Assembly (NCBI RefSeq): GCF_004310325.1
Contig: NZ_SIRT01000008.1
Span: 62,001-126,000 of the forward strand
DNA: 64,000 bases
Reading direction: 5' to 3'
From: Hyunsoonleella flava
GTDB taxonomy: Bacteria; Bacteroidota; Bacteroidia; Flavobacteriales; Flavobacteriaceae
Position 1 is the first letter of the stretch. Every line of letters starts with the position of its first letter. Below the pieces are notes generated by a model. That model made no database searches, was not told where the DNA came from, and saw only the letters and a list, made by a program, of their open reading frames with translations. Both the position numbers and the translations under genes were made by a program. Below, piece by piece: positions 402-63,838 of this stretch.

Positions 402-448
402 ACAGGATACAACAGGATAGGTGACACCAAAAATTTTATTTATTTTAA
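402..448 (+). promoter_or_regulatory. ACAGGAT direct repeat with -7-like box (site a)
   Basis: Two perfect half-sites ACAGGAT at 402-408 and 412-418, exactly 10 bp apart. A weak -7-like box TATTTTAA (441-448) follows after 22 bases; it matches four of the six fixed positions of TAnnTTTG. The ATG at 477 lies 28 bases after the box. An inverted half-site (392-397) lies just upstream. Same architecture as the sites before 3298, 5971, 9081, 23679, 51164 and 63896. Confidence 0.6.
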
Positions 449-476
449 ACGAATAAATAACTAAAACTTCATAATT

Positions 477-1301
477 ATGAAAAAAATTACTTTAAAAAGA
501 ATTGTATTGCTAATGGTATTAGCATTTACAGTTCAAAATTTTTCTTTTGCACAAGGTGCTACTGAGCAACCAAACACTGCACGTGATGGCCAAACGTATC
601 GTATAAGAAACATGGCAACGGGCAATTACTTAGCTTACGATGACACTTTAGGGAAATATGCGCCTGTCGCTTTTGATGCAAACGATGAAACACAAGTGCA
701 CAGGTTTATGTCAAATAGTACAGTAATTTCAGGATCAACGTTTTATACTATAGATATGGGAGGACCTGGTGTTTCAAGAGGTGTTATGAGAATGGCTGGT
801 GCAGGTGCTATGAATGAAGTGTTTTCTACTACCAAACAATTCGATGCTACTTCAGGTATGACTGATAAAGTGCAAAACGTTTGGGAATTAGGTGGAGAAA
901 TAATTTTAATTCAAGCCAAAACAGCTAATTCTTACTTAACTGAACAAGATCAGGCATTTTTTGATGCTAACGGGTTTTGGTTCCAAGGGCCAGCTATTAC
1001 TGATCCAATTGAATTGAATCAGCAGTGGTTATTAGAAGCAGGTACGTTAAGCAATGAAGAGTTTGACTCAAGCTCAATTTTTATTTCTAACCCTGTGAAT
1101 AGTGAGATCAGCATTAAAGGTTTAACTGCAGATGTTAACTCTATTTCTGTATTCTCACTTATAGGTAAACAAGTTTTATCTAGAGAAGTAAATGGTGAAA
1201 CATCTCTTACTTTAGATTCAAGTGCATTATCAAGCGGTATGTATCTTGTTAAAATACAAGGCGATAATGGTGCGTTTACTAAGAAAATAGTAAAGCAGTA
1301 A
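477..1301 (+). CDS. Secreted ricin-like lectin-domain protein with T9SS tail
   Basis: 274 residues. An N-terminal signal peptide ends near the AQG at residues 26-28. Residues about 38-190 form a module beginning DGQTYRIRNMATGNYLAY that resembles ricin-type beta-trefoil carbohydrate-binding domains. It is also recognisably related to residues about 596-735 of the protein at 3298-5772 (DVYRIKNLATGKYL). Residues about 200-274 are a T9SS type A sorting domain (SNPVNSEISIKG, then GMYLVKI and a terminal KKIVKQ). No catalytic domain is visible, so this looks like a stand-alone secreted or surface carbohydrate-binding protein. It has its own promoter of the repeated type and a strong terminator right after it, so it is probably a single-gene transcript that could be highly expressed. 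The ligand is unknown; ulvan-like polysaccharide is inferred from context. Confidence 0.7.
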   Translation: MKKITLKRIVLLMVLAFTVQNFSFAQGATEQPNTARDGQTYRIRNMATGNYLAYDDTLGKYAPVAFDANDETQVHRFMSNSTVISGSTFYTIDMGGPGVSRGVMRMAGAGAMNEVFSTTKQFDATSGMTDKVQNVWELGGEIILIQAKTANSYLTEQDQAFFDANGFWFQGPAITDPIELNQQWLLEAGTLSNEEFDSSSIFISNPVNSEISIKGLTADVNSISVFSLIGKQVLSREVNGETSLTLDSSALSSGMYLVKIQGDNGAFTKKIVKQ

Positions 1302-1330
1302 TATACTCGGTACTTAACATATTTTTTTAA

Positions 1331-1370
1331 AAACATTCTATCTTGGTAAAAGATAGAATGTTTTTTTTTA
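1331..1370 (+). terminator. Strong intrinsic terminator
   Basis: Perfect 14-bp stem (1331-1344 with 1350-1363, AAACATTCTATCTT) with a 5-base loop, running into about ten T residues. It lies 30 bases after the lectin-like gene and separates it from rhaM. Confidence 0.85.
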
Positions 1371-1441
1371 TATCGAATAAAAAAAAATCTGATGTATCTT
1401 TAAAAAAAGATTTAAACTAAAAATAAAAGCGTTTTTACATT

Positions 1442-1756
1442 ATGCAGAGGCTAGCATTTAAAATGAAACTAAACAAAGGGCAAAAAGAGGCCTATACCAA
1501 GCGACATAATGAATTATGGCCAGAGTTAAAGCAATTATTAAAGGATAATGGTGTAAGCGAATATTCCATTTTCTTTGACGAAGAAACTAGTACGCTTTTT
1601 GCGTTCCAAAAAGTATCAGGTTCAGGTGGTTCTCAAGACTTAGCTGATAACCCTATAGTAAAAAAATGGTGGGATTACATGGCTGACATAATGGAAGTTA
1701 ATGCAGACAACTCTCCTGTTTCTATTCCTTTGGAAGAGGTTTTCTATATGCCGTAA
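1442..1756 (+). CDS. rhaM: L-rhamnose mutarotase
   Basis: 104 residues, the usual family length. RhaM interconverts the alpha and beta anomers of L-rhamnopyranose so that the isomerase receives its preferred form. The family signature is complete: RLAFKMKL at the N-terminus, His22 in KRHNELWPEL (the catalytic His of the E. coli enzyme has the same number), Tyr41 in SEYSIFF, the KKWWDYMADIM helix and the final PLEEVFYMP. There is no signal peptide, so the protein is cytoplasmic. It lies 28 bases upstream of the oxidoreductase gene, probably in one transcript. A weak TATCTTTA box at 1395-1402 may be the promoter, but I see no ACAGGAT repeat upstream. The other rhamnose genes are about 50 kb away in the window. 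Confidence 0.95.
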   Translation: MQRLAFKMKLNKGQKEAYTKRHNELWPELKQLLKDNGVSEYSIFFDEETSTLFAFQKVSGSGGSQDLADNPIVKKWWDYMADIMEVNADNSPVSIPLEEVFYMP

Positions 1757-1784
1757 CTAATAGTTGAATATGAAAAAGTAAACT

Positions 1785-3101: not shown

Positions 3102-3226
3102 AGTTTTTCTTATTAATTAAATATCCATATTAAGAAATCACCACTTTTAAAGTTATCTTAGGTGATGTAATTGGAATTATATAGTTCCGTGATTTAATTT
3201 ATATAGTTTATTCTTAACAATATACT

Positions 3227-3272
3227 GCACGATAGTACAGGATACTTTAAAAAGTGAAAATAACTATTTTTA
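3227..3272 (+). promoter_or_regulatory. ACAGGAT repeat promoter (site b)
   Basis: First half-site GCACGAT (3227-3233, degenerate), second ACAGGAT (3237-3243), then exactly 21 bases, then the -7 box TATTTTTA (3265-3272; five of six fixed TAnnTTTG positions). The ATG at 3298 lies 25 bases downstream, which supports that start over a TTG at 3292. Confidence 0.65.
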
Positions 3273-3297
3273 TGGATTAAAAGAAAAACAATTGGCT

Positions 3298-5899: not shown

Positions 5900-5945
5900 A
5901 CCCTATAGTGCAGGACACTTCAAAACATTAAAATAATTAATTTTA
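5900..5945 (+). promoter_or_regulatory. ACAGGAT repeat promoter (site c)
   Basis: The first half-site is weak (ACCCTAT, 5900-5906), the second is GCAGGAC (5910-5916), then exactly 21 bases, then TAATTTTA (5938-5945; five of six fixed positions). The ATG at 5971 follows after 25 bases, the same distance as at site b, in keeping with a tandem duplication that included the promoter. Confidence 0.6.
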
Positions 5946-9007: not shown

Positions 9008-9053
9008 ACAGTAAAGAGCAGGATGATTATCATTTTTTTATGTGGTAGATTTA
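9008..9053 (+). promoter_or_regulatory. ACAGGAT repeat promoter (site d)
   Basis: Half-sites ACAGTAA (9008-9014) and GCAGGAT (9018-9024), exactly 21 bases, then TAGATTTA (9046-9053; five of six fixed positions). The distance to the ATG at 9081 is 27 bases, as at the other sites; to the ATG at 9069 it is only 15, so 9081 is the more likely start. Confidence 0.6.
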
Positions 9054-9080
9054 AGAGATTAAAATTTTATGAATAATCTC

Positions 9081-13849: not shown

Positions 13850-13895
13850 TCGAGATACAACAGGACAGTTTTATTTTTAGAAAATTGGAAATTGC
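13850..13895 (+). promoter_or_regulatory. Partial ACAGGAT promoter (site e)
   Basis: A good second half-site ACAGGAC (13860-13866) with a poor first half (TCGAGAT, 13850-13856) and no good -7 box at the usual 21-base distance (GAAATTGC, 13888-13895). The half-site ends about 64 bases upstream of the ATG at 13930, close to the distance seen elsewhere. Weaker than the other sites. Confidence 0.35.
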
Positions 13896-13929
13896 ATATC
13901 CATTCAATATCCTAGTTTTTCAGGTCATT

Positions 13930-23601: not shown

Positions 23602-23647
23602 ACAGGACACAACAGGATTATATCCAGAGTTATAAAAGTTAAGTTTG
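23602..23647 (+). promoter_or_regulatory. ACAGGAT repeat promoter (site f)
   Basis: Half-sites ACAGGAC (23602-23608) and ACAGGAT (23612-23618), exactly 21 bases, then a perfect -7 box TAAGTTTG (23640-23647). The ATG at 23679 follows after 31 bases. One of the best copies of the composite promoter. Confidence 0.75.
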
Positions 23648-48381: not shown

Positions 48382-49428
48382 CTAAAGAGAATCTCTTTCT
48401 ATAATATGAAACGGCACCTTTACAGAAGTTTTCTTTTTATCTAAAATAGTTTGGGCAGCAATTTCTGCCATAACTTTAAAATCAGTAGAAACTACAGTTA
48501 TACCCAATAGTTCTTTTAGTGGTGTTTCATTATATGAAATAATACCAATATCGCTACCTAGTGTATACTCGTCTTCTCTAACTTGTTTCACTAAATTTAC
48601 TAAGTCAGCCTCCTCAATGGTTATAAACAAGTCTCCTTTTTTTAAAATCATGTCTTCATAGACTTTATGAAGTATTTCAAAGTCTAGTTTGTGTTCCACA
48701 CAAAATTTCCTAAAACCATGTAAAATTCTTCTCGGATAAGGGTAAACGGATTTTTCGGGGTATACTAATATAAGTTTTTCGTATTTTTTTACTTTATTAA
48801 TAACTTTATTTAGGGCTTCATAAATATCATTTTCAAAATCTTGATAAACTTCCCCTAAAACACCTTTTAAGTTAGGTTTAAGGTTATCCAATACTATTAA
48901 TTTCTCCTTAGGGATTTTATTTAAAATTTTCAGAGCCTTTTCAGTGAAACTAACATGTTTTAAATGTTCAGTCTTAAAATGAGGCATTATCACAAAATAA
49001 TCAAAGGCCGATTTGTTTTTTTCTAAAATATTCAAAAACAGAGTTTCGTCGCAATGGTATACATGTAAAATGGTATGCGAATTAGCACCTATAGAATTAA
49101 TGAAATGGTTGTAAGTTCTTAATTTATAATTACTTAGTTTGTTTATTAAGAATAAAATATTGACTTTAGAAATTAATTTTGTTCTTGATATATAAAATCC
49201 TTTGCCACGAATCGAAGTGATGATATTTCTTTCTTTGAGAATGCTATATGCTTTCTCGACGGTATCCCTTGAAAGATAAAACTCTTCACTAAATCTATTT
49301 ATCGAGGGTATTTTTTGATCAATACTGAAATTACCGTTTGATATATTAGTGATTACGGAATCAACGATTTGTTGGTATTTAGGAACCCTAGAATTTTCGT
49401 CAATATTTATGAATTTATATATATCCAT
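48382..49428 (-). CDS. GntR-family regulator with sugar-binding-type effector domain (copy 1)
   Basis: 348 residues. N-terminal winged helix-turn-helix of the GntR type (about residues 14-78: RVPKYQQIVDSVITNISNG, then FSEEFYLSRDTVEKAYSILK and IRGKGFYIS). The C-terminal ~260 residues resemble a LacI/periplasmic-binding-like effector domain (KVNILFLINKLSNYKL, GSDIGIISYNETPLKELLG), the AraR-type arrangement. This suggests a sugar or sugar-phosphate sensor. It is a close paralogue of the next gene, both on the minus strand, 69 bases apart. Location between the polysaccharide block and the rhamnose operon makes rhamnose or a pathway intermediate a likely ligand. The 44-base gap to the convergent lyase gene has no clear terminator. 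Confidence 0.85.
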   Translation of the reverse strand: MDIYKFINIDENSRVPKYQQIVDSVITNISNGNFSIDQKIPSINRFSEEFYLSRDTVEKAYSILKERNIITSIRGKGFYISRTKLISKVNILFLINKLSNYKLRTYNHFINSIGANSHTILHVYHCDETLFLNILEKNKSAFDYFVIMPHFKTEHLKHVSFTEKALKILNKIPKEKLIVLDNLKPNLKGVLGEVYQDFENDIYEALNKVINKVKKYEKLILVYPEKSVYPYPRRILHGFRKFCVEHKLDFEILHKVYEDMILKKGDLFITIEEADLVNLVKQVREDEYTLGSDIGIISYNETPLKELLGITVVSTDFKVMAEIAAQTILDKKKTSVKVPFHIIERDSL

Positions 49429-49497: not shown

Positions 49498-50544
49498 TTA
49501 TAGAGAATTTCTATCAATAAAATTAAAAGGTACTTTATATTCTCCCCTTTCACCATTTAAAATCATATATGATGTTTTTTCTCCCATTGCTTTAAAATCA
49601 GCTGATATTACCGTTATACCAAGAAGTGCTTTCAGGGGAGTGTCATTATAAGAAATGATACCAATATCAGTTCCTAAGATAAATTCTTTATCTCTAGTTT
49701 GTTCCATTAAATTTACTAAATCATCTTCTTCAATTGTAATAAACAAATCGCCATCCTTAAGCACCATGTCATCATAAACCTTATCAATGATATCAAAATC
49801 TAGTTGATGATCTACGCAGAACTTCATAAATCCATGTGTTATTTGTTTTGGATAGGGGAAAACCGTTTTTTTAGGGTATACTAAAACTATTTTTTTGTAC
49901 TTTGAAATTTTTGAAAAACCATCTTTTAGCGCATTATAAATGTCATTTTCATAGTCTTCATATACAGTGATGATATTGTTCTTAATAGGTGTTTTTTTGT
50001 TCCCTAATATGATAAGCTTATCTTTTGGAATTTTGATTAACGCTTTTGATACTGGAATGGTTGTGCTTATGTGCTCATGGTCTTTGGTTTTAAAATGCGG
50101 CATTATTACGTAATAATCATATGCTTTTTTATGTTTATTAAGTAAATTTAAAAATAAGGATTCATCACAATGATAAATATGAAGATCTGTGTAAGAGTTT
50201 GGCCCCATGCTGTTTATAAATGAATAATAGATCTCCATTTTGTACCAACTCAATTTGTTTATGAGGAATAGGATATTAATCTTCTTAATTAGTTTTGTTC
50301 TTGAAACATAGTAGCCTTTTCCTCGTATGGCGGAGATAATGTTCCTTTCCTTAAGAATACTATAAGCTTTTTCTACTGTATCCCTTGAAAGGTAAAAATC
50401 TTCACTAAATCTGTTTATTGATGGTATTTTTTGATCAATTTTAAGATTCCCTCTAGAAATATTATCAATAATAGAGTCTACGATTTGTTGGTATTTTGGT
50501 ATCCTAGAATCTTCATCTATTTTAATATACTTATATAAATCCAT
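49498..50544 (-). CDS. GntR-family regulator with sugar-binding-type effector domain (copy 2)
   Basis: 348 residues, the same length and architecture as copy 1. The winged-helix part is nearly identical (FSEDFYLSRDTVEKAYSILK), so both may recognise similar operators. The effector domain differs more (INILFLINKLSWYKMEIYYS; LGTDIGIISYNDTPLKALLG), which suggests different ligands. A minus-strand copy of the ACAGGAT-repeat promoter at 50865-50910 points towards this gene from about 320 bases upstream; if it drives this gene the transcript has a leader of about 310 bases. Autoregulation is possible but not shown. Confidence 0.85.
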   Translation of the reverse strand: MDLYKYIKIDEDSRIPKYQQIVDSIIDNISRGNLKIDQKIPSINRFSEDFYLSRDTVEKAYSILKERNIISAIRGKGYYVSRTKLIKKINILFLINKLSWYKMEIYYSFINSMGPNSYTDLHIYHCDESLFLNLLNKHKKAYDYYVIMPHFKTKDHEHISTTIPVSKALIKIPKDKLIILGNKKTPIKNNIITVYEDYENDIYNALKDGFSKISKYKKIVLVYPKKTVFPYPKQITHGFMKFCVDHQLDFDIIDKVYDDMVLKDGDLFITIEEDDLVNLMEQTRDKEFILGTDIGIISYNDTPLKALLGITVISADFKAMGEKTSYMILNGERGEYKVPFNFIDRNSL

Positions 50545-50673
50545 GATTTGGTTTCTTTTTAAATTGACGCACTTATTATTTAATAAATAAAGCGAAGTTC
50601 ATCTAAAAAAAGCTTTACGATTAGAGTTTGGGAGCATCACAACCGTAACGTGCCTTTACCTAAATACTACTTT

Positions 50674-50901
50674 TTATTGTTCTTTATAAATGCCCAGTTT
50701 ATATGTTACTATATTGTCATAAATACTTTTTAATGCAACAGGCAGTTCATTTGACTGAAAGTGCTTTATTCTATTGAGTATTTTGTTTATTGGTTTAAAA
50801 ACACCAACGTATTGTATCAATGCAATTAATTGAAAATTATCTTCTAGGTATTTGAAATAAGTAACAAAGATATTGCTAAGCGGGTTGGGAATAGTCCTGT
50901 G
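50674..50901 (-). pseudogene. Start-less 75-codon frame, possible gene remnant or leader
   Basis: Minus-strand frame with stop TAA at 50676-50674 and a stop just upstream (50904-50902). It encodes a protein-like sequence (NIFVTYFKYLEDNFQLIALI, then QYVGVFKPINKILNRIKHFQ, then YDNIVTYKLGIYKEQ) but contains no ATG; the only candidate start is a TTG at 50820, giving 48 residues. The promoter of site h overlaps its first codons. It may be the C-terminal remnant of a lost gene, a leader of gntR copy 2, or chance. No homologue recognised. Confidence 0.3.
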
Positions 50902-50910
50902 CTATCCTGC
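50865..50910 (-). promoter_or_regulatory. ACAGGAT repeat promoter on minus strand (site h)
   Basis: Read on the minus strand: half-sites GCAGGAT (50910-50904) and ACAGGAC (50900-50894), exactly 21 bases, then a perfect -7 box TATCTTTG (50872-50865). It is one of the three perfect boxes in the set, yet the nearest annotated start downstream (gntR copy 2, 50544) is about 320 bases away. Confidence 0.65.
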
Positions 50911-51088: not shown

Positions 51089-51134
51089 GCAGTATAGTAC
51101 AGGATAGAAATAATACACTGCTACTCTATTTTTG
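51089..51134 (+). promoter_or_regulatory. ACAGGAT repeat promoter of the rhamnose operon (site i)
   Basis: Half-sites GCAGTAT (51089-51095) and ACAGGAT (51099-51105), exactly 21 bases, then a perfect -7 box TATTTTTG (51127-51134). The ATG at 51164 follows after 29 bases; the in-frame TTG at 51137 would lie at or before the transcript start, so 51164 is the real start. Confidence 0.75.
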
Positions 51135-51163: not shown

Positions 51164-53269
51164 ATGGAAAACATAACCAAAAACTTTAAATACGTAGATT
51201 ACCTTTGGGATGAAAAAAAGGCTGATAGTCTAGGTGATAACCAAGTGGATTTATTTTTATACCGTTCTAATATATTAGGAGCCGATTTAAGAATAACAAA
51301 TTACGGTGGAGGTAATACAAGTTGCAAAACCATAGAGAAAGACCCATTAACAAACGAAGAAGTTGAGGTAATGTGGGTAAAAGGGTCCGGTGGAGACATT
51401 GGTACTTTAACACGTTCTGGAATTGCAGGTTTATATACAGGAAGACTACGTGATTTAAAAAATGTTTACCAAGGTTTACATGATGAAGATAGAATGGTTG
51501 GTTTATTTAATCATTGTATTTACGATTTAGATAGTAAAGCACCATCTATTGATACACCATTACACGGTCTATTGCCTTTTGCACATATAGATCACTTGCA
51601 CCCAGATGCTTTAATTGCGGTTGCTGCTGCAAAAGATAGCGAAAAAGTTACTAAAGAAATTTGGGGTGACACTATGGGATGGGTGCCTTGGCAAAAACCA
51701 GGTTTCGATTTAGGATTACAGTTAGAAAAATGTTTAGCTGATAACCCTGGAATTAGAGGTATTGTTTTAGGTAGCCATGGTTTATTTACATGGGGAGATA
51801 CGTCTTATGAGTGTTACATGAATAGTTTAGAGGTTATTGAAATGGCTTCTGAATACATAGAAAAGAAGCTAAAAGAGCAAGGTGAAGTTTTTGGTGGTCA
51901 AAAAGTTGAAAGTTTACCTCAGGAAGAGCGTTTAGAAAAAGCGGCTCAATTAATGCCTTTATTAAGAGGTTTGGCATCATCTGAAAATAGAATGATTGGT
52001 CATTTTACAGATACAGATGTTGTGATGCAGTATATTAATAGTCACGATTTAGAAAGATTAGCTCCATTGGGAACTTCTTGTCCAGATCACTTCTTAAGAA
52101 CTAAAATTCAACCATTAGTATTAGATCTTGATAAAAACGAGGATTTATCCGATGCGGATGCAATTTTAGCTAAGTTAGAGCCAGCATTTGAGGCATATCG
52201 TCAAGAGTATGTAGATTATTACAATACTTGTAAAAGAGATAACAGTCCTGCAATTAGAGATGCAAATCCAGTAATTATTATCTATCCTGGAGTGGGTATG
52301 TTCAGTTTTGCAAAAAACAAACAAACTACACGTGTTGCAAGCGAGTTTTATATTAATGCAATTAATGTAATGCGCGGTGCGGAAGCTATAACAGAATATA
52401 CGTCTTTACCAAGACAAGAAGCTTTTGATATTGAGTATTGGTTATTGGAAGAGGCTAAATTACAACGTATGCCAAAAGAAAAACCCTTATCTAGAAAAGT
52501 AGCTTTGGTTACTGGTGCAGGTGGCGGAATTGGTAAAGCAATTGCTGATAAGTTGGCTGCTGAAGGTGCAAACGTAGTACTTACGGATATTAATGAAGAC
52601 GCTTTAATTGAAGCGAACGGAACTTACGCAAGAGATGTGTCTTCTTATGCAATTTGCGATGTAACAAGCACAGATTCTATTGCTAATGCATACAAAAAAG
52701 CTGTTCTTGAGTTTGGAGGCGTAGATATTATTGTACATAGTGCAGGTTTAGCAATTTCTAAACCTTTAGAAGACACAACAGATAAAGATTGGAATATTTT
52801 ACAGAACATTCTGGTAAAAGGACAGTTCGATTTAGCAAAACAATTTGCTGCAATAGTTCGTAAGCAAGGGCTCGGAGGCGATTATATAGCCATAGCCAGT
52901 AAAAATGGATTAGTTGCTGGACCAAATAATGTAGCATATGGCACTGCAAAAGCGGCGCAACAACATATGGTACGTTTATTAGCTGCAGAATTAGCAAAAG
53001 ACAAAGTACGAGTTAATACAGTAAACCCAGATGGGGTTATTGTAGGAAGTAAAATATGGGAAGGCGCCTGGGCAGAAGGAAGAGCCAAGGCAAATGGAAT
53101 TACAGTTGAGGAATTGCCAGCATTCTATGCAAAAAGAAATTTATTACACGAAATAATCACGCCAGATGATATCGCAAATGGTGTATTTTCTCTTGTAGGT
53201 ATTCTTGACAAATCTACTGGAAACATTATTAATGTGGATGGTGGAATGGCAAATGCCTTTGTTAGATAG
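51164..53269 (+). CDS. rhaEW: Bifunctional rhamnulose-1-phosphate aldolase / L-lactaldehyde dehydrogenase
   Basis: 701 residues from the ATG at 51164. The N-terminal half (to about residue 430) is a class II aldolase domain with zinc-type histidines in HGLLPFAHIDHLHPDALIAV and LGSHGLFTWGD; it splits L-rhamnulose-1-phosphate into DHAP and L-lactaldehyde. The C-terminal part (about 445-701) is a short-chain dehydrogenase: VALVTGAGGGIGKAIADKLA binds NAD(P), and YGTAKAAQQH holds the catalytic Tyr-x-x-x-Lys; it oxidises L-lactaldehyde to L-lactate. This fusion is a known member of the rhamnose pathway. It is the first gene of the operon behind a perfect promoter of the repeat type. Cytoplasmic. 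Confidence 0.93.
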   Translation: MENITKNFKYVDYLWDEKKADSLGDNQVDLFLYRSNILGADLRITNYGGGNTSCKTIEKDPLTNEEVEVMWVKGSGGDIGTLTRSGIAGLYTGRLRDLKNVYQGLHDEDRMVGLFNHCIYDLDSKAPSIDTPLHGLLPFAHIDHLHPDALIAVAAAKDSEKVTKEIWGDTMGWVPWQKPGFDLGLQLEKCLADNPGIRGIVLGSHGLFTWGDTSYECYMNSLEVIEMASEYIEKKLKEQGEVFGGQKVESLPQEERLEKAAQLMPLLRGLASSENRMIGHFTDTDVVMQYINSHDLERLAPLGTSCPDHFLRTKIQPLVLDLDKNEDLSDADAILAKLEPAFEAYRQEYVDYYNTCKRDNSPAIRDANPVIIIYPGVGMFSFAKNKQTTRVASEFYINAINVMRGAEAITEYTSLPRQEAFDIEYWLLEEAKLQRMPKEKPLSRKVALVTGAGGGIGKAIADKLAAEGANVVLTDINEDALIEANGTYARDVSSYAICDVTSTDSIANAYKKAVLEFGGVDIIVHSAGLAISKPLEDTTDKDWNILQNILVKGQFDLAKQFAAIVRKQGLGGDYIAIASKNGLVAGPNNVAYGTAKAAQQHMVRLLAAELAKDKVRVNTVNPDGVIVGSKIWEGAWAEGRAKANGITVEELPAFYAKRNLLHEIITPDDIANGVFSLVGILDKSTGNIINVDGGMANAFVR

Positions 53270-53381: not shown

Positions 53382-54662
53382 ATGAAAATTCAGCAAGAAC
53401 AAGTATTCGAAAACAACAAAAAGAACTTAAAAAATCATGAGGAGAGCTATGATTTTTTAGCAAACAAGTTAAGCAAAGATGGGCACGACGTTTCTAAAAT
53501 TGTTTCAGAACTATCAGACTTTCAAGTTGCAATACCAAGTTGGGCTTTAGGGGCAGGAGGAACACGTTTTGGACGTTTTTCATTTTATGGGGAGCCATCA
53601 AGCCTTGAGCAAAAAATAGACGATATAGGTGTTTTACATAGTTTAACACAAACCGCAGGGGCTGTGTCGTTACATATTCCTTGGGATATCCCTTCAGATT
53701 ATGCAGCAATTAAAGAAAAAGCAGATGCTTTAAATATTAAATTCGATGCTGTAAATTCAAACACATTTCAAGATCAAAAAGATGCTGCAGAGAGCTATAA
53801 GTACGGTTCTTTGAGTAATACAAGCAAAGCTGTACGTGAACAAGCTATTCAGCATAACTTAGATGTTATTAAAATAGGAGACAAACTTGGTTCAAAAGCT
53901 TTAACAGTTTGGTTAGCTGACGGCTCTTGCTTTCCTGGACAAAATAATTTCCAAACCGCTTTCCAAAATACACAAGATAGCTTAATAGATATTTATAAAG
54001 GATTACCTGATGACTGGAAGTTGTTGGTAGAGTATAAACCTTATGAGCCAAACTTTTATAGTACGGTAATTCAAGATTGGGGCGCGTCTTTAATGTTGGC
54101 AAATGGTTGCGGAGATAAAGCTTATACCTTAGTAGACTTGGGGCATCACTTACCAAACTCAAATATTGAGCAAATTGTATCAATTTTACAGTTAAAAGGT
54201 AAGTTGGGAGGTTTCCACTTTAATGACAGTAAGTATGGAGATGATGATTTAACGGTAGGTAGTATCAAACCTTACGCCTTATTCTTAATCTTTAACGAGT
54301 TGGTGTATGGTATGCAAAACAACCCACAAAACCCAGATTTAGCGTGGATGATAGATGCAAGCCATAATGTAAAAGACCCTTTGGAAGATTTGATACAATC
54401 GCTAGAAGCCATTCAGGAAGCTTACGCAAAAGCAATGTTGATTGATCAAAACGCGCTTAAAGCAGCACAAATTGATAACGATGTTGTAAAATGTCAAGAA
54501 ATTTTACAGGGTGCCTACAGAACAGACGTTAGGCCGTTATTAGAAAAGGCACGCCTAAATACAGGAGGAGCATTAAGCCCAATAAACGCATACCGTGAGC
54601 TAAATGTAAGAGGCAGTTTAATTTCAGAAAGAGGTAAACATACTGTAGCAACCGGTTTATAA
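53382..54662 (+). CDS. rhaI: L-rhamnose isomerase
   Basis: 426 residues. Belongs to the RhaI type found in Bacteroidota and proteobacteria (about 430 residues), a TIM barrel that converts L-rhamnose to L-rhamnulose with divalent metal ions. Visible family features include FQVAIPSWALGAGGTRFGRF near the start, LLVEYKPYEPNFYSTVIQDW (metal-binding Glu region), ALVDLGHHLP-like VDLGHHLPNSNIEQIV, GGFHFNDSKYGDDDLTVGS (Asp/His ligands) and MIDASHNVKDPLEDLIQS. No signal peptide, cytoplasmic. It stands between rhaEW (112 bases upstream, with a hairpin in the gap) and rhaB (eight bases downstream) and receives the anomer supplied by RhaM. Confidence 0.95.
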   Translation: MKIQQEQVFENNKKNLKNHEESYDFLANKLSKDGHDVSKIVSELSDFQVAIPSWALGAGGTRFGRFSFYGEPSSLEQKIDDIGVLHSLTQTAGAVSLHIPWDIPSDYAAIKEKADALNIKFDAVNSNTFQDQKDAAESYKYGSLSNTSKAVREQAIQHNLDVIKIGDKLGSKALTVWLADGSCFPGQNNFQTAFQNTQDSLIDIYKGLPDDWKLLVEYKPYEPNFYSTVIQDWGASLMLANGCGDKAYTLVDLGHHLPNSNIEQIVSILQLKGKLGGFHFNDSKYGDDDLTVGSIKPYALFLIFNELVYGMQNNPQNPDLAWMIDASHNVKDPLEDLIQSLEAIQEAYAKAMLIDQNALKAAQIDNDVVKCQEILQGAYRTDVRPLLEKARLNTGGALSPINAYRELNVRGSLISERGKHTVATGL

Positions 54663-54670
54663 CCACAATA

Positions 54671-56047
54671 ATGAAACAAAAAGTAACCGCCGTTTTTGAC
54701 ATTGGAAAAACAAATAAAAAGTTTTTTCTATTTGACAAAAAATTTAAGGAAGTACATAAGGAATACATTTCTTTTGAAGAAATAGAAGATGAAGATGGGC
54801 ACCCAACAGAAAACCTTCCTGCACTAAAAAAATGGTTAAAAAAAGTTTTCGATCGTATCCTAGAGAAAAAGGAGTTTAATGTAGAGGCTATCAACTTTTC
54901 AACTTACGGTGCCAGTTTTGTACATATTGATGAAAACGGAAAGCCCCTAACACCGCTTTACAATTATACAAAGCCATTACCAAGCAACATTGTAGATTCG
55001 TTCTTTAAGAAGTACGGACCTAAAGAAGAATTTCTTAAAACTACCGGATGTGTGGATTTAAGTATGCTTAACTCTGGACTACAATTGTATTGGTTAAAAT
55101 ATTCTCAACCAGAGGTTTTTTCTAAAATCAAATACTCATTGCACTTGCCTCAGTATTTAAGTTATGTGTTTACGGGAATTCCTTTAAGCGAATATACCAG
55201 TATTGGCTGCCATACAGCATTATGGGATTTTGGAAAGAAAGACTATCATGATTGGGTTTATAAAGAAGGCATAGACAAGATATTACCTCCAATAGTTTCA
55301 ACTGAAACTAGCGTAAACATGAATTACAATGGTAATAGAATAAAAATTGGTGTGGGTATTCATGACAGTTCCGCAGCCTTATTACCCTATGTAAGAAGTA
55401 TTAAGAAGAAGTTTGTTTTAGTGTCTACAGGTACTTGGAGTATTGTGTTTAATCCTTTTGCCGGAGATCAAATTTTAGATGATGCATTTAAAAATGATAC
55501 TCTGAATTATATGCGGATTAATGGAAGGCCAGTTAGAGCTGCACGTATATTTTTAGGGAATGAATATAAATTGCAAGTAGAAAAACTCAACAAGCACTTT
55601 GGCGTAAATGATGAATATCACCAAACAGTTAGTTTCGATTACGACACGTATCTTGAGATTATGAAGGATTTTAAGTATTGTTTCAAATGGGAAAGTATTA
55701 CGGACGATAATATGCCTGAAAAGACAGCTTTTTATTTTGATAAGTATGAGCATGCTTATCATCAAATGATGACGGAACTTGTGCTATTACAAATAAAGTG
55801 TATTAAAGAAGCACTAGGTAGTGATGAAATTAAACGTATATATGTAGACGGCGGTTTTAGTAATAACGATATTTATATAAAACTCCTATCACATAATTTT
55901 AACGATAAGAAGTTAAGTACGACAGATGCGTCCCTTGGTTCAGCACTAGGGGCGGCTATTTCAATTTCAGATAAGAAACTGAATTCGAAATTTTTAAAGC
56001 AAAATTATGCTCTTAAAAAGCATGTGCCTTTTATAGTTAATGGATAG
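54671..56047 (+). CDS. rhaB: L-rhamnulokinase (FGGY family)
   Basis: 458 residues. FGGY-family carbohydrate kinase: VTAVFDIGKTNKKFFLFDKK is the N-terminal ATP-binding phosphate loop, KKFVLVSTGTWSIVFNPFAG and IYVDGGFSNNDIYIKLLSHN are typical of the second half, and GIHDSSAALLPYV carries the catalytic-base Asp (GxHDS/T). It phosphorylates L-rhamnulose at C1, giving the substrate of the RhaE domain. It is about 30 residues shorter than the E. coli enzyme. Position directly after rhaI supports the assignment over xylulose or fuculose kinase. The gap of 61 bases to the next gene has no terminator. Confidence 0.9.
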   Translation: MKQKVTAVFDIGKTNKKFFLFDKKFKEVHKEYISFEEIEDEDGHPTENLPALKKWLKKVFDRILEKKEFNVEAINFSTYGASFVHIDENGKPLTPLYNYTKPLPSNIVDSFFKKYGPKEEFLKTTGCVDLSMLNSGLQLYWLKYSQPEVFSKIKYSLHLPQYLSYVFTGIPLSEYTSIGCHTALWDFGKKDYHDWVYKEGIDKILPPIVSTETSVNMNYNGNRIKIGVGIHDSSAALLPYVRSIKKKFVLVSTGTWSIVFNPFAGDQILDDAFKNDTLNYMRINGRPVRAARIFLGNEYKLQVEKLNKHFGVNDEYHQTVSFDYDTYLEIMKDFKYCFKWESITDDNMPEKTAFYFDKYEHAYHQMMTELVLLQIKCIKEALGSDEIKRIYVDGGFSNNDIYIKLLSHNFNDKKLSTTDASLGSALGAAISISDKKLNSKFLKQNYALKKHVPFIVNG

Positions 56048-56108
56048 TCCAAGTAATTATAATTAGTTTAAAATTAAATAAATAACATTATTTCCAAATC
56101 AAAATAAA

Positions 56109-57398
56109 ATGTCTAAAAACATAAAATTAGTTCATCCAAGAGATCAAATTACAGAAATCATCAGCAGAGTTTATAAAAGGGGAATGACCACAACTTCTGG
56201 TGGTAATATTTCTATTATAGATGAGCAAGGAGATATTTGGGTAACACCTTCAGCAATAGACAAAGGGTCTTTAAGAGCGTCGGATATTATATGCGTAAAA
56301 CAGGATGGAACCATCATCGGTAAGCATAAACCGTCATCTGAGTTTCCGTTCCATAAGGCCATTTACGAGGCAAGACCAGATATTAAGTCAGTTATTCACG
56401 CACACCCGCCAGCTTTGGTGTCGTTTAGTATCGTGCGTCAAATTCCTAACACGAATATTATTTCTCAAGCAAAACATATATGCGGTCCGATAGGATACGC
56501 AAAGTATAGACTTCCTGGTAGTGAAGATTTAGGAGATGTGATTGCAGATGAATTTAAAAAGGGATACAAAGCTGTTATAATGGAAAATCATGGAACCGTT
56601 TTAGGAGGAAGTGATTTAACAGATGCTTACGAACGTTTTGAGGCTTTAGAGTTTTGTGCAAGAACTATCATATATGGATCGCAAATAGGAGCACCAAAAT
56701 ATTTATCAGACGAACAAATAGACGCATTTGAATCTCAGGCTACTGGTGTGTTGCCAGAAATGGAAGCTACCGACTATACTTCTGATGAAGTGGAAAAACG
56801 CTTAGAAATTTGTAAAATAGTACAGCGTTCTTGTCAACAAGGTTTAATGATTGGTTCCTATGGAACAGTGTCTATGCGTTGGAAAGACAACGACTTTTTA
56901 ATTACACCAACCAATGTTAATCGATGGGATTTAGATTTAGATGATATCGTTCAAATAAAAGATGGACATAGAGAGGCTGGAAAAATACCAAGTAGAGCTA
57001 CATGGATGCATCAAGAGATTTATAATAGAAACCCTGATGTCAATTCCATTATCATGACACAATCACCATATCTCATGGCTTTTGGAGTTACAGCAGAATA
57101 TCTTAACGTAAGAACTATCCCAGAGAGCTGGATATTTTTACAGGATATTAATTTTGTTGAGTATGGAAGTCATTTCAGAAAGAATAATAATTCAGATATT
57201 GTAGATAACTGTCCTACTGCTTTAATTATTGAAAATGATTCTGTAATTATTACTGGAGATAAGTTGCTACAAACTTTTGACTATTTGGAAGTTGCCGAAT
57301 TTAGCGCAAAATCCATAGTACTCGGAAATTCATTAGGTGATATGGTACCTATAAATGATGAACAGGTAGAAGATTTAAGAAAGAAATTTTTAGCATAA
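56109..57398 (+). CDS. Tandem class II aldolase/adducin-domain protein
   Basis: 429 residues made of two class II aldolase domains. The first (about 1-205) is complete: SSEFPFHKAIY carries the catalytic Glu, SVIHAHPPALV the zinc pair His-x-His and IMENHGTVLGG the third His. The second (about 225-429) aligns along its length but has lost every key residue: SRATWMHQEIY in place of SSEFPFHKAIY, SIIMTQSPYLM in place of SVIHAHPPALV, and IIENDSVIITG in place of IMENHGTVLGG. It thus looks like an active aldolase or epimerase fused to a dead partner domain. The substrate is unknown; sugar-phosphate related to rhamnulose or fuculose phosphate is likely from the operon. Five bases separate it from the FMN enzyme. 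Confidence 0.85.
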   Translation: MSKNIKLVHPRDQITEIISRVYKRGMTTTSGGNISIIDEQGDIWVTPSAIDKGSLRASDIICVKQDGTIIGKHKPSSEFPFHKAIYEARPDIKSVIHAHPPALVSFSIVRQIPNTNIISQAKHICGPIGYAKYRLPGSEDLGDVIADEFKKGYKAVIMENHGTVLGGSDLTDAYERFEALEFCARTIIYGSQIGAPKYLSDEQIDAFESQATGVLPEMEATDYTSDEVEKRLEICKIVQRSCQQGLMIGSYGTVSMRWKDNDFLITPTNVNRWDLDLDDIVQIKDGHREAGKIPSRATWMHQEIYNRNPDVNSIIMTQSPYLMAFGVTAEYLNVRTIPESWIFLQDINFVEYGSHFRKNNNSDIVDNCPTALIIENDSVIITGDKLLQTFDYLEVAEFSAKSIVLGNSLGDMVPINDEQVEDLRKKFLA

Positions 57399-57403
57399 AA
57401 AAT

Positions 57404-58552
57404 ATGGCAATAAGTTTTGATACACGTTATCCATCAATTGATGATTTAAGAACCAAAGCTCAAAAAAAGATACCAAAATTTGCATTTGAATATCTTGATG
57501 GTGGGTGTAATGAAGACGTTAATTTAGTACGAAATACTGCGGAATTAAGGGAAGTACAACTTAAGCCTAATTATTTAAGAAAGCATCATGGTTCTTCATT
57601 GAAAACTAAGTTGTTCGGTGTGGAGTATGATGCACCTTTTGGTATTGCACCAGTTGGTTTACAAGGTTTAATGTGGCCTAATTCACCAGAAATTTTAGCA
57701 AAAGCGGCATTTGAGCATAATATCCCATTTATTTTAAGTACTGTAACAACAACAAGTATAGAGAGAGCTAGTGAACTAACGGAAGGCAAGGCTTGGTTTC
57801 AGTTGTATCATCCTACTGAAAATAGCTTACGTGATGATATTATCAAACGAGCTGAAGTAGCGGAATGTCCAGTTTTGGTTATTCTTTGTGATGTACCAAC
57901 TTTTGGTTTTAGACCTAGAGATATCAGAAATGGGTTGGCAATGCCACCAAAAATGAATCTAGCAAATATTTTAGAGGGTTTCACGCATCCACATTGGAGT
58001 TTACAAACTTTAAAACATGGTATTCCTAATTTTGCAACCTTAAAACCATATATGCCTAAAAACTTGGATTTAAAGCAATTAGGTAAATTTATGGATCAAA
58101 CTTTTAGTGGAAGACTAAACGAAGAAAAAATAAAGCCTATCCGAGATATGTGGAAAGGTAAGTTGGTACTAAAAGGTGTAGCTTCTGAGTATGATACAGA
58201 AGAGGCAATCAAATTAGGACTGGATGGTATTATTGTTTCCAATCACGGAGGTCGTCAATTGGATGCTGGTCAATCTACAGTAAAGCCTTTATCTACTATT
58301 GCTGAAAAGTATGGAGACAAAATAGAGGTGATGATGGATAGTGGCGTACGCTCAGGGCCAGATGTAGCAAGAGCAATGGCTAGTGGTGCTAAATTCACTT
58401 TTATGGGGCGCTCTTTTATGTATGGTGTGTCAGCACTTGGTAAAAAAGGAGGTAACCACACAATTTCTTTATTAAAAACAGAATTGCAGCAAGTTATGGA
58501 GCAGCTATGTTGTGAGACAACGAGCGATTTTCCTAATCACTTGATAAAATAG
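57404..58552 (+). CDS. FMN-dependent L-lactate dehydrogenase/oxidase-like enzyme
   Basis: 382 residues, FMN-dependent alpha-hydroxy acid dehydrogenase family (LldD, glycolate oxidase). Visible motifs: KIPKFAFEYLDGGCNEDVNL at the start, DAPFGIAPVGLQGLMWPN (FMN site), FILSTVTTTSIE, and DGIIVSNHGGRQLDAG, where the His is the catalytic base and the following Arg binds the carboxylate, then VMMDSGVRSGPDVARAMASG and FMGRSFMYG for FMN phosphate binding. L-lactate from the lactaldehyde branch is the likely substrate, giving pyruvate. No membrane anchor is apparent. It overlaps functionally with lutABC downstream. Whether electrons go to oxygen or to quinone is not visible. Confidence 0.85.
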   Translation: MAISFDTRYPSIDDLRTKAQKKIPKFAFEYLDGGCNEDVNLVRNTAELREVQLKPNYLRKHHGSSLKTKLFGVEYDAPFGIAPVGLQGLMWPNSPEILAKAAFEHNIPFILSTVTTTSIERASELTEGKAWFQLYHPTENSLRDDIIKRAEVAECPVLVILCDVPTFGFRPRDIRNGLAMPPKMNLANILEGFTHPHWSLQTLKHGIPNFATLKPYMPKNLDLKQLGKFMDQTFSGRLNEEKIKPIRDMWKGKLVLKGVASEYDTEEAIKLGLDGIIVSNHGGRQLDAGQSTVKPLSTIAEKYGDKIEVMMDSGVRSGPDVARAMASGAKFTFMGRSFMYGVSALGKKGGNHTISLLKTELQQVMEQLCCETTSDFPNHLIK

Positions 58553-60068: not shown

Positions 60069-60108
60069 AAAGCTCAGCTATAGATTAATAATAGCTGAGC
60101 TTTTTTAT
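60069..60108 (+). terminator. Strong intrinsic terminator after aldA
   Basis: Perfect 13-bp stem AAAGCTCAGCTAT/ATAGCTGAGCTTT (60069-60081 with 60091-60103), a 9-base loop and a T-run. It lies between converging genes; in the minus direction the stem is followed by only a short T-rich stretch, so it serves mainly the plus-strand operon. Confidence 0.85.
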
Positions 60109-60126
60109 TTAAAGTATTAAAACTAT

Positions 60127-60903: not shown

Positions 60904-60943
60904 TGTTTAAAATTTATGTTATTAAATTTCTATTGACAATATT

Positions 60944-61522
60944 TTAAACCAATAAAACCGTTAAACTCATAGCGCCGTGAGCACCAACTACAAGACATTG
61001 CTCTATATCTGCTGTTTTAGACGGTCCTGATATAAACACGCCAAAATCTCTATCTCTTTTAGCAATGTTATCATAGGCTTCTAGCATGTGCAAGCAAATA
61101 TTACGCTTGTCTAGAATGATAACTAAATCATTGGTGATAAAAGGAAGTGCACGTACCAAGCTATTATTTGCCGTTATCCAAATAGCACCATTTTCAGAAA
61201 CACCAAGTTCTCCTTCAACAATGGCTAAATCAATATGTTCAAGTGTATGCGGATCAGTGTTTTTATCAATTTCAACATTACCCAGGTTAGATTTAGTTGT
61301 TGTAGCAACAATAGTTGATTTATTTGGGTACTGCTCCTTAATCTTAGCGTCAATAGCATCAGTAGTAATCTCAAAAACTTGTCCGCCAACTAAAGCTAAA
61401 TTGTCCTTAAAAGTTTTTACTACATCAATATCTTCCTGAAATGCCGATTCATCAATTTCTGGTAAAGGAAGTACCTCAGGTTTATTCTTTTTTACTGCTT
61501 TTAATATGGCTTCTCTACTCAT
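60944..61522 (-). CDS. lutC: Lactate utilisation protein C (LutC/YkgG-type)
   Basis: 192 residues from the ATG at 61522; an in-frame ATG at 61561 would overlap lutB by 47 bases, whereas 61522 gives the common ATGAGTAG overlap of eight bases with the lutB stop. It matches the LutC (DUF162) family, with HTLEHIDLAIVEGELGVSEN, then GAIWITANNSLVRALPFITN and VFISGPSKTADIEQCLVVGA. LutC is a part of the L-lactate-oxidising LutABC system, which oxidises L-lactate to pyruvate via iron-sulfur proteins. Genes follow in the order lutA, lutB, lutC. Confidence 0.92.
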   Translation of the reverse strand: MSREAILKAVKKNKPEVLPLPEIDESAFQEDIDVVKTFKDNLALVGGQVFEITTDAIDAKIKEQYPNKSTIVATTTKSNLGNVEIDKNTDPHTLEHIDLAIVEGELGVSENGAIWITANNSLVRALPFITNDLVIILDKRNICLHMLEAYDNIAKRDRDFGVFISGPSKTADIEQCLVVGAHGAMSLTVLLV

Positions 61523-62882
61523 TTTTACGTCTTTTTTTATACCATTCATCAAAACTCTCATGTTTTACTTCAGGCAAGTCTCTGGCTTTACCCCAAGCAT
61601 TTAACTTGTTGTAAATCATAAATCGTGGTGCATGTTTTAATGCAAATCGAGCAGATTTTCCTGCCATTTTGTAAAGCTTAGGTTTTGATAAAACTACACC
61701 AGCAGTTTTTAAAATTGATTTTTTTACAATGGGTTGCTTTTCTTCTTGAACAATAATTTGGCGCCATTTATAGAGCTGTTCATGAATATTAATTTTTACA
61801 GGGCAAACATTGGAGCAGGAACCACATAAGGTTGATGCAAATGGCAGCGAACTGTGCTTTTTTAAATCCTTTCCTGGTGAAAGAATTGAACCTATAGGCC
61901 CAGGAATTGTATAATCATAACTATGGCCGCCACTCCTCCTGTAAATAGGGCAGGTGTTCATACAAGCACCACAACGTATACAATGAAGTGAGGCTCTAAA
62001 GTCTTCTCTACTTAGTTGCTCGGTTCTTCCGTTATCCACAATAACTATGTGCATTTCTTTACCCTCTTCAGCTTTGTTAAAATGTGAAGAATAGGTTGTA
62101 ATGGGTTGCCCTGTTGCACTTCTGGCAAGCAATCTTAAAAATACACCTAAGTGTTTTTCTTGGGGTATAATTTTTTCAATGCCCATACAAGCAATATGAG
62201 CTTTGGCCAAATGTACGCCCATATCTGCGTTGCCTTCATTTGTACAAACTACAACACCACCGGTATCTGCTACGGCAAAATTTACACCAGTAATGGCTAC
62301 ATCGGCATTAAGGAATTTGTCTCTAAGATGTTTTCTAGCTTCACCAACTAAATATTCTGGGTTTCCACCACTAGGTTTAGTGTTTAAATGCTCCTGAAAT
62401 AACACATCAACATCTTCTTTGGTTTTATGTATCGCGGGCAATACAATATGGCTTGGTGGTTCTTCAGCCAATTGTACAATACGCTCACCTAAATCTGTAT
62501 CCACAACTTCAATGCCTTTTGATTCCAAAAACGGATTCAAATGACATTCTTCGGTTAGCATAGATTTACTTTTTACTACTTTTTTAGCATTATGTTTTTC
62601 AAGTATACTGTTTATGATAGTGTTATGTTCTTCAGCGTTTGATGCCCAATGCACTTGGATACCATTATTTTTTGCATTTGTTTCAAATTGAATGAGATAT
62701 TTATCTAAGTTTGATAAAACATTAGCTTTTATGCCAGACCCTAGTTGTCTTAAATATTCCCAACCTTGAACATTATGTGCTGATTTATCACGTTTTTCCC
62801 TAACGTACCACAAAGCTTTATCATGCCAATTTACTTTTGCTTCGTCTTTATTAAATTCCGTTGCTTTTTGTGCGTGCCCCAT
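61515..62882 (-). CDS. lutB: Iron-sulfur L-lactate utilisation protein B
   Basis: 455 residues. N-terminal LutB/DUF162-like part (STEEC-type MLTEECHLNPFLESKGIEVV, and INFAVADTGGVVVCTNEGNA with GVNFAVADTGG) and two 4Fe-4S ferredoxin motifs near residues 300-370: CIRCGACMNTCPIYRR and CGSCSNVCPVKINIHEQ. It transfers electrons during L-lactate oxidation with LutA and LutC. The ATG at 62882 is four bases from the lutA stop, so the genes are tightly coupled. In this locus it would burn the lactate formed from rhamnose. Confidence 0.95.
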   Translation of the reverse strand: MGHAQKATEFNKDEAKVNWHDKALWYVREKRDKSAHNVQGWEYLRQLGSGIKANVLSNLDKYLIQFETNAKNNGIQVHWASNAEEHNTIINSILEKHNAKKVVKSKSMLTEECHLNPFLESKGIEVVDTDLGERIVQLAEEPPSHIVLPAIHKTKEDVDVLFQEHLNTKPSGGNPEYLVGEARKHLRDKFLNADVAITGVNFAVADTGGVVVCTNEGNADMGVHLAKAHIACMGIEKIIPQEKHLGVFLRLLARSATGQPITTYSSHFNKAEEGKEMHIVIVDNGRTEQLSREDFRASLHCIRCGACMNTCPIYRRSGGHSYDYTIPGPIGSILSPGKDLKKHSSLPFASTLCGSCSNVCPVKINIHEQLYKWRQIIVQEEKQPIVKKSILKTAGVVLSKPKLYKMAGKSARFALKHAPRFMIYNKLNAWGKARDLPEVKHESFDEWYKKRRKNE

Positions 62883-62885
62883 AAC

Positions 62886-63638
62886 TTATAAACTACTATT
62901 TAGTATTTCGGCAATATGCATCACCTTAAGTGGTTGTTTGTTTCTGTTTACAATCCCTTCCATGTGCATCAAGCAGGAATGGTCTGCGCCAGTAAGTACC
63001 TCCACATCACTATCTATATGGTCCTGCACACGATCTTTTCCCATTTTAGAAGAAATTGCTTCCTCAAAAACAGCAAAGGTGCCACCAAAACCACAACACT
63101 CATCTTTTCTATTAAGTGCCATCAGTTCTAAGCCTTTTACTTCTTTTAGTAAATCTTCTTCAGTAGAGTAATGTTCGCCTTGTACTTCAGAACACTTTCC
63201 TAATTTAAGTCCGCGCAAACCATGACAACTTTTATGCAATCCTACTTTGTGAGGAAACGAAGCACCTAAATCTGTTTTTCCAAGAATTTTTACAATGAAT
63301 TCGCAAAGTTCATAAGCATTATTTCTAACGCGTTTTACCTCAGGCGTTTGTTCTAAAATATCAAAATGATGTTTTACATGATAGATGCAACTTCCAGAGG
63401 GCCCAACTATATAATCATAGTCATTGAAATTTTTAACAAATAAGTTGCAAATGCCTTTGGAGTCTTGCTCGTATCCTGAATTTCCAAGAGGTTGACCACA
63501 ACAGGTTTGTCCTTCGGGGTAATACACATCAACTCCTAATTTCTCAAGGAGTTCAAGCGTTGCAATACCGACCTGAGGATATAATTGATTAACGTAACAG
63601 GGGATAAATAATCCGACTTTTATGGCGCTATTAGTCAT
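62886..63638 (-). CDS. lutA: CCG-domain L-lactate utilisation protein A
   Basis: 250 residues with two cysteine-rich CCG domains: GQTCCGQPLGNSGYEQDSKG and RKDECCGFGGTFAVFEEAIS. These bind an unusual iron-sulfur cluster in LutA/GlpC/heterodisulfide-reductase-type proteins. LutA is a subunit of LutABC. It is the first gene of the minus-strand operon. A composite promoter of the ACAGGAT type (63664-63709) lies upstream with its box 25 bases before the ATG, which ties lactate oxidation to the rhamnose/polysaccharide regulon. Confidence 0.95.
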   Translation of the reverse strand: MTNSAIKVGLFIPCYVNQLYPQVGIATLELLEKLGVDVYYPEGQTCCGQPLGNSGYEQDSKGICNLFVKNFNDYDYIVGPSGSCIYHVKHHFDILEQTPEVKRVRNNAYELCEFIVKILGKTDLGASFPHKVGLHKSCHGLRGLKLGKCSEVQGEHYSTEEDLLKEVKGLELMALNRKDECCGFGGTFAVFEEAISSKMGKDRVQDHIDSDVEVLTGADHSCLMHMEGIVNRNKQPLKVMHIAEILNSSL

Positions 63639-63663
63639 TTAGTTTAGTGAAGTTTTAGTTAAT

Positions 63664-63709
63664 TAAAAATATCTTAAATTGTGACAAAAACTGTCCTGTT
63701 CTGACCTGT
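63664..63709 (-). promoter_or_regulatory. ACAGGAT repeat promoter of lutABC (site j)
   Basis: On the minus strand: half-sites ACAGGTC (63709-63703) and ACAGGAC (63699-63693), exactly 21 bases, then TATTTTTA (63671-63664; five of six fixed positions). The lutA ATG (63638) follows after 25 bases. Confidence 0.7.
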
Positions 63710-63792
63710 ATTTTAGAATGCAGTTTTGATTTTTATAATTTCTAATTACAGGGTTACTCAAGTTCTTATTCGTATTTAGGAATTTTTTAGTA

Positions 63793-63838
63793 ACAGAACA
63801 GTACAGGATGCAAAAACCTGATGGACGTCCTATTTTCG
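63793..63838 (+). promoter_or_regulatory. ACAGGAT repeat promoter of the rightmost gene (site k)
   Basis: Half-sites ACAGAAC (63793-63799) and ACAGGAT (63803-63809), exactly 21 bases, then TATTTTCG (63831-63838; five of six fixed positions). The ATG at 63896 is 57 bases downstream, a longer leader than at the other sites. Confidence 0.6.

Follow-up and report, generated by a model that had tools for sequence, protein, structure and literature searches.

The window analysed here is a 64,000-nucleotide stretch of Hyunsoonleella flava DNA (contig NZ_SIRT01000008.1, positions 62,001 to 126,000; G000:C62:62001-126000 in our numbering), part of a 3.8-Mb draft genome of 63 contigs. Ten sites in this window carry a direct repeat of ACAGGAT-like half-sites with a 10-bp period, followed in nearly all of them, at a fixed distance, by a promoter box of the form TAnnTTTG. 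The same window encodes two tandem GntR-family proteins, GntR1 and GntR2. On the evidence of sequence we put at about three in four the probability that these sites are operators of a GntR regulator of AraR architecture, namely GntR1/GntR2, which would recruit RNA polymerase as an activator.

A direct repeat with a box at a fixed offset

Half-site 2 was written as RCAGGAY, the 17-mer consensus of both half-sites as RCAGGAYANNRCAGGAY, and the box as TAnnTTT(G or A) with six fixed positions, its offset being the number of bases after half-site 2. All ten sites were located in the window sequence at the coordinates given by the original prediction (Table 1). Half-site 2 was intact in 10/10 and half-site 1 was more variable. 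The 21-base spacing previously claimed was borne out, with a complete box (6/6) at offset 21 in sites b, c, d, f, h, i and j, a 5/6 box at 21 in site k and a 5/6 box at both 21 and 22 in site a. Site e had no good box (best 3/6) and is doubtful. The claim that the gene starts 25-31 bases after the box in seven sites had to be reduced to five, with gaps of 25 (b, c and j), 29 (i) and 31 (f) bases, or to six with the second, in-frame ATG of site d (27 bases from the box, the first ATG lying at 15). The gap was 57 bases at site k, and at site h it was in fact 320 bases to the GntR start, with the first ATG of any kind at 114. The position of site h ahead of the GntR pair possibly points to autoregulation. 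Site h is separated from GntR2 by a 320-nt leader (50545-50864, minus strand) holding an open frame some 62 codons long, which lacks an ATG near the box.

Within the window, RCAGGAYANNRCAGGAY had 22 matches with up to three mismatches vs a shuffle mean of 8.39 (standard deviation 2.88), and none of 100 shuffles reached 22. The laxer composite RCAGGAY-N21-TAnnTTTR, allowing two mismatches, gave 25 matches vs 16.2, a number reached by 3/100 shuffles, and is a weak control when scanned in the window alone; its exact matches numbered seven, every one a site of the ten. Genome-wide, 71 matches to the 17-mer with up to two mismatches were found vs 34 for the reversed pattern. The 18 matches with no more than one mismatch fell on C62 (10, one of which, C62:71371, is located inside a gene), C56 (5), C34, C1 and C8 (one each). 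The composite pattern with up to one mismatch had 101 matches vs 55 reversed, and the 12 exact matches listed genome-wide were confined to C62 (8) and C56 (4).

A weight matrix was trained on the 17-mers only, so that the box was not built in, and was used to scan C62 1-145000, C56 120001-195838 and C34 220000-233136 at a score of at least 11. It returned 36 rows, comprising 28 sites before genes, seven matches inside genes and a register-shifted duplicate of site b, which was left out of the counts. One site, C56:193451, falls in an open reading frame opening with TTG and was counted as before a gene, since its first in-frame ATG comes after the box. A box of at least 5/6 at offset 21 accompanied 25/28 sites before genes vs 0/7 matches inside genes, in keeping with the spacing preference that such a scan had been proposed to reveal. 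The three sites without it were C62:33351, site e and C34:228889, which has a 6/6 box at offset 20. Information by column in the 28 sites resided mainly in both half-sites, in the bases right after half-site 2 and in the box.

The composite also recurred in related genomes. In a comparison set of 149 genomes of the family Flavobacteriaceae, the bifunctional rhamnose gene rhaEW (detection limit 1e-120) was present in 42, with usable upstream sequence in 41 (G002 was left out owing to a contig edge). In 38/41 rhaEW promoters, the H. flava promoter included, a site whose box scored at least 5/6 at offset 21 stood ahead of the gene, at 51-116 bases from the start. In a separate collection of 79 homologues of the window GntR with named hosts, 68 loci had a site within 700 bp of the gene and 63 of these had their best box at 21, although these counts are not independent, 23 of the 79 being labelled Flavobacterium. 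The 54.9 kb near these GntR genes held 70 matches with a score of at least 12, of which 65 had a box at 21, while 20 column-permuted matrices gave in total 26 matches in the same 54.9 kb, none with a box. The remainder of the loci (617 kb) held 68 matches, 35 of them with a box. Named hosts extended to Lewinella-type bacteria and Marivirga, which we take to lie outside the class Flavobacteriia. A chance origin of the composite was thus ruled out by the shuffles, by the boxes at 25/28 vs 0/7 matches and by the column-permuted matrices.

The GntR pair as candidate reader

Both proteins matched the GntR domain PF00392 (43.7 bits for GntR1 and 41.9 for GntR2, cut-off 27), and the DNA-binding domain of AraR (4egy) was among the PDB sequence matches of GntR2 (E 1.3e-7). 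The C-terminal family PF13377 was borderline in GntR1 (26.4 vs a cut-off of 26.5) and gave no match in GntR2. An AlphaFold model of GntR2 (pLDDT 87.9, pTM 0.73) was searched with Foldseek, and the best 50 matches listed were all LacI-type regulators, with TM scores of 0.51-0.58 by query and 0.54-0.72 by target length. GntR2 is therefore predicted to be a winged helix on a LacI-type core. Some relatives (e.g. G061, G116, G138, G041 and G130) likewise carry two adjacent GntR copies.

A GntR protein of at least 54% identity to GntR2 was found in 37 of the 42 rhaEW genomes and was listed for 0/107 others; the remaining five rhaEW genomes have a GntR of 38-43% identity. Motif matches with up to one mismatch numbered 347 vs 83 for the reversed control in the 37 GntR genomes, and 204 vs 91 in the 107 genomes without rhaEW (p 5e-13 between the two groups, by a test that ignores relatedness, as does the p value below). 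In G045 and G105 the sole genome match with up to one mismatch sits between GntR and rhaEW, and the GntR gene of G111 is adjoined by a site that has its box at 21. In G042, which has the GntR, a box of at least 5/6 at 21 was present in 8/8 loci read, of 14 matches. G136 and G068, which lack such a GntR and appear motif-rich by count, had a box in 1/16 loci read, of 22 matches. For GntR proteins of the type found on C56, a match scoring at least 20 lay just before or after the gene in 6/6 loci read.

The original prediction had stated that no AraC, response-regulator or sigma gene lies in the window. This held, since a Pfam scan of 39 window proteins recovered no regulators other than the two GntR proteins, and no DeoR-family protein stood beside the operon. 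An AraC gene does lie on the same contig, 59 kb left of the window and in the same ulvan-type region (C62:2194-3084, minus strand; L031:2194-3084), with AraC_binding and HTH_18 domains. AraC proteins commonly activate from direct repeats, and the 11 genomes with an orthologue of this one have the most motif matches (156 vs 33 control). Nevertheless, that orthologue (at least 70% identity) was found in only 11/149 genomes, and the motif excess persisted in the 26 GntR genomes without it (191 vs 50 reversed, p 1.5e-8). Bacteroides AraC-type RhaR motifs, moreover, have a 21-bp period, not 10 (PMC3870299). The 30 bases upstream of the 17-mer, in 28 H. flava and 39 rhaEW sites, held no strongly conserved element, and no strong element there matched the 21-bp direct repeat. 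The distribution among the 149 genomes thus contradicts this AraC protein as the general reader, a role that we regard as very improbable; it may be an additional regulator that is ulvan-specific. A hybrid two-component system, such as the one with an AraC DNA-binding domain at C56:120019-122670, left of the second ulvan-type locus, seems scarcely credible as the reader, a judgement made on motif period only, as tandem sites in the published motifs of that class are on average 21 bp apart (PMC3878776).

It is also conceivable, if improbable, that an alternative sigma factor or an unlinked regulator sees the repeat as a -35-like element. The fixed box spacing does resemble a two-part promoter, and no rhaEW promoter without a related GntR turned up among the 149 genomes. 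On the other hand the sites adjoin GntR genes, 15 of the 16 matches read in the two genomes lacking the GntR had no box, and the -7 box is itself of the sigma-A type (PMC9723704).

The window GntR protein is most likely the reader, because it co-occurs with rhaEW and the motif, because the AraC orthologue is rare (11/149) and because galactose-linked GntR paralogues have a different direct repeat of 10-bp period too. This departs from the original prediction, which named no recognising factor and had set the GntR proteins aside because direct repeats misfit the family. Direct repeats are bound by the GntR regulators NanR, NagQ and FarR, as discussed below.

Promoter geometry, paralogues and mode of action

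Sigma-A promoters of Bacteroidota have a TTG element at -33, and an activator in contact with RNA polymerase would require both a fixed spacing and a substitute for the -33 element. With the -7 box TAnnTTTG at -12 to -5 (PMC9723704), half-site 2 covers approximately -40 to -34 and half-site 1 approximately -50 to -44. A TTG ending 17-23 bases before the box was found in 0/25 H. flava sites and 2/39 rhaEW sites, a depletion that follows largely from half-site 2 filling that place. The earlier proposal that a half-site sits where the -33 element should be, as fits an activator, is supported by the spacing and by this TTG absence, and activation is favoured because the offset is fixed at 21 and no TTG stands at -33.

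Recognition helices and repeats vary together among the paralogues. Beside ACAGGAT repeats the helix is mostly DTVEKAY (as in GntR2) or DTVFKAY, DTVLMAF and its close variants go with CTAGTAGG-N2-CTAGTAGG, and DTVFKSY goes with CAGAACAGAACAGAA in 3/3 loci. The H. flava GntR of the DTVLMAF type (L260, G000:C1:407000-414000) adjoins aldose epimerase, galactokinase, galactose-1-phosphate uridylyltransferase and symporter genes. These galactose-type neighbours were checked with Pfam in H. flava and identified by eye from N-termini in the other 15 loci, some of which show only an epimerase or a permease; G001:C13:388905, which has different neighbours, was left out. The repeat CTAGTAGG-N2-CTAGTAGG, again of 10-bp period, matched at 13 or more of 16 bases ahead of the GntR start in 16/16 galactose-type loci, its consensus having been chosen from the very loci on which it was counted. 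These operators stand on either strand (10 and 6) at 6-23 bases from the box, and a -33 TTG was present in only 4/16 of the promoters. A palindromic operator would suit some of these loci (e.g. G004), CTAG being self-complementary; judged by eye, a direct repeat is the better fit, since both repeats carry GG at the same end. In the three lactate-linked loci (L292, L296 and L297) CAGAACAGAACAGAA lies directly after the -7 box and before the GntR start, a position as would be expected for repressors. A relative of the site-k permease is encoded near this GntR in two of the three (L296 and L297).

The same GntR could instead be a repressor, which would block RNA polymerase beside the box until a sugar ligand releases it, and we consider this unlikely but worth taking seriously. 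Many GntR and AraR-type regulators repress, the galactose-type operators tolerate either strand and a range of distances from the box, and the lactate-linked type has its operator in a repressor-like place. A repressor, however, needs neither an offset of 21, as found in 25/28 H. flava sites and 38/41 rhaEW promoters, nor the absence of the -33 TTG in 25/25 H. flava sites.

Besides the limits given above for the 79 loci, the TTG counts and the galactose consensus, several points weigh against an activating GntR. The rhaEW promoters of G034 and G111 have no site, and that of G021 has only a weak one at 398 bases. Half-site 1 is degenerate (score below 15) in 5/38 rhaEW sites (G093, G018, G066, G131 and G057), and the rhaEW sites also display a 5-bp periodicity. 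No site lay within 700 bp in 11/79 GntR loci, although in L301 (G116) sites occur further away. As no rhaEW promoter without a related GntR was found among the 149 genomes, an unlinked factor that always goes with rhaEW would fit the same distribution. Known AraR-type proteins are repressors on palindromes. The case is slightly further weakened because in 10/16 galactose operators the distance to the box is 17-23 bases, close to 21, and because G068 supplies a single boxed match in a genome without the GntR.

In the activator reading that we prefer, the tandem pair would encode a GntR winged helix on a LacI-like core, and two such winged helices would bind in head-to-tail order to RCAGKAYA-type half-sites one helical turn apart. 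Half-site 2 would take over the place of the sigma-A -33 element, and RNA polymerase would be recruited to TAnnTTTG once the regulator is bound. The signal is most likely L-rhamnose or a product of it, as the smallest form of the system consists of a GntR gene and a rha operon. In some Flavobacteriaceae the site is confined to the rha operon, and in ulvan-type genomes it also precedes ulvan-locus, lactate-use and glucuronate-use genes. The second ulvan-type locus is probably also read by a paralogue, C56:131633-132634. More tentatively, and with slightly less than even confidence, a Bacteroidota branch of GntR-LacI chimeras may read head-to-tail 10-bp repeats. One clade may have turned activator by using a half-site as the -33 element, its operator spreading from one rhamnose operon through the genome to form an algal-polysaccharide regulon of several paralogous sensors, while the galactose and lactate-linked sister clades may have retained this architecture, with other half-sites, and stayed repressors.

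Regulon content and known systems

The window comprises an ulvan-type locus, the GntR pair, a rhamnose operon and lactate genes (Table 1). Its ulvan-type locus encodes BNR_4 and PLH30 ulvan-lyase domains, GH78 and GH106 rhamnosidases and sulfatases, and also contains a gene of the alpha-acetolactate-decarboxylase family (12817-13632). The permease after site k showed weak NCS1-type matches under the cut-off.

Table 1. Positions in the window of the composite sites, the GntR pair and the rhamnose genes.
Feature	Position	Strand	Elements	Gene content or gene preceded
Site a	402..448	+	half-sites 402-418, box offset 21 or 22	precedes 477-1301 (PLH30 beta-trefoil, secretion tail)
Site b	3227..3272	+	half-sites 3227-3243, box 3265-3272	precedes 3292-5772 (BNR_4 + PLH30 ulvan-lyase beta-trefoil; ATG 3298)
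Site c	5900..5945	+	half-sites 5900-5916, box 5938-5945	precedes 5971-8163 (BNR_4)
Site d	9008..9053	+	half-sites 9008-9024, box 9046-9053	precedes 9069-11270 (GH20b-type domain)
Site e	13850..13866	+	half-sites only	precedes GH78 rhamnosidase 13885-16659
Site f	23602..23647	+	half-sites 23602-23618, box 23640-23647	precedes GH2 protein 23679-26708
GntR1	48382..49428	-		348 aa, tandem paralogue, 66% identical to GntR2
GntR2	49498..50544	-		348 aa, N-terminal GntR winged helix and C-terminal LacI-type core (predicted); best candidate reader
Site h	50865..50910	-	half-sites 50894-50910, box 50865-50872	320 nt ahead of GntR pair
Site i	51089..51134	+	half-sites 51089-51105, box 51127-51134	precedes rhaEW
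rhaEW	51164..53269	+		bifunctional rhamnulose-1-phosphate aldolase/short-chain dehydrogenase; TIGR02632 above its cut-off
Genes after rhaEW	53382..58552	+		L-rhamnose-isomerase-like (below cut-off), FGGY kinase, class II aldolase domain, FMN-dependent L-lactate-dehydrogenase-like (below cut-off)
Site j	63664..63709	-	half-sites 63693-63709, box 63664-63671	precedes lutABC-like lactate genes 60944-63638
Site k	63793..63838	+	half-sites 63793-63809, box 63831-63838	precedes permease, start 63896

In the genome at large the motif clusters in the two ulvan-type loci and also stands before a glucuronate operon. The other sites on C62 precede GH78 genes, a SusC-like receptor and a sulfatase-like gene followed by rhaT. 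Those on C56 precede GH2, a GntR gene, a SusC-like receptor, a 3-keto-disaccharide-hydrolase-type gene, GH43, a BNR_4/PLH30 protein and a sulfatase-rhamnosidase fusion. The fusion joins a sulfatase and a GH78-type rhamnosidase in one frame with a strong site ahead (C56:151624-155157; L037:11624-15157). The site on C34 precedes D-mannonate oxidoreductase, then uxuA, glucuronate isomerase and a TRAP permease, all four above curated cut-offs. The single regulon of polysaccharide, rhamnose and lactate genes that had been predicted is supported by these positions, and would extend to the second ulvan-type locus and the glucuronate operon. RhaEW is a rhamnulose-phosphate aldolase joined to a lactaldehyde dehydrogenase (PMC3870299), and the presence of lactate genes would be accounted for by the passage of rhamnose through it to L-lactate. 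Rhamnose and glucuronic acid are abundant in ulvan (PMC12858550), and the latter, as the other main sugar of this polymer, would explain the glucuronate operon.

Rhamnose genes, including rhaEW, are known to be controlled by RhaR regulators of the AraC, DeoR and LacI families (PMC3870299). The DeoR-type RhaR resembles the present system in its imperfect direct repeats of 10-11 bp period, compared with 10 bp here. Unlike these RhaR systems the present candidate is a GntR protein, a name ('gntr') with no occurrence in the main text of PMC3870299, and no GntR-type rhamnose regulator was found in the open-licence papers searched. Some GntR regulators (NanR, NagQ, FarR and MocR types) bind direct repeats and thus share with our candidate both the GntR-type DNA-binding domain and this kind of operator, although their C-terminal domains and half-sites are different (PMC4494728). 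In Zobellia galactanivorans a GntR regulator of alginate genes (Dudek et al. 2020, by its title as cited in PMC9296495) likewise governs algal polysaccharide use in a marine flavobacterium, but that title names it a repressor.

If the activator reading is right, it identifies the regulator and the operator through which marine flavobacteria control their use of ulvan and rhamnose, and such regulons could be read from genomes with one composite pattern. A GntR protein would then also be seen to activate from a direct repeat, and its protein-DNA code could be tested on the paralogues. The operator of AraR is a palindrome, whereas the present one, provided that GntR reads it, repeats directly with a 10-bp period, has a spacing that fits activation and belongs to genes for rhamnose and ulvan. 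The likeness to the AraR subfamily, as represented by Bacillus subtilis AraR, would lie in the joining of a GntR winged helix to a GalR/LacI-type core and in the control of sugar and polysaccharide genes (PMC4494728).

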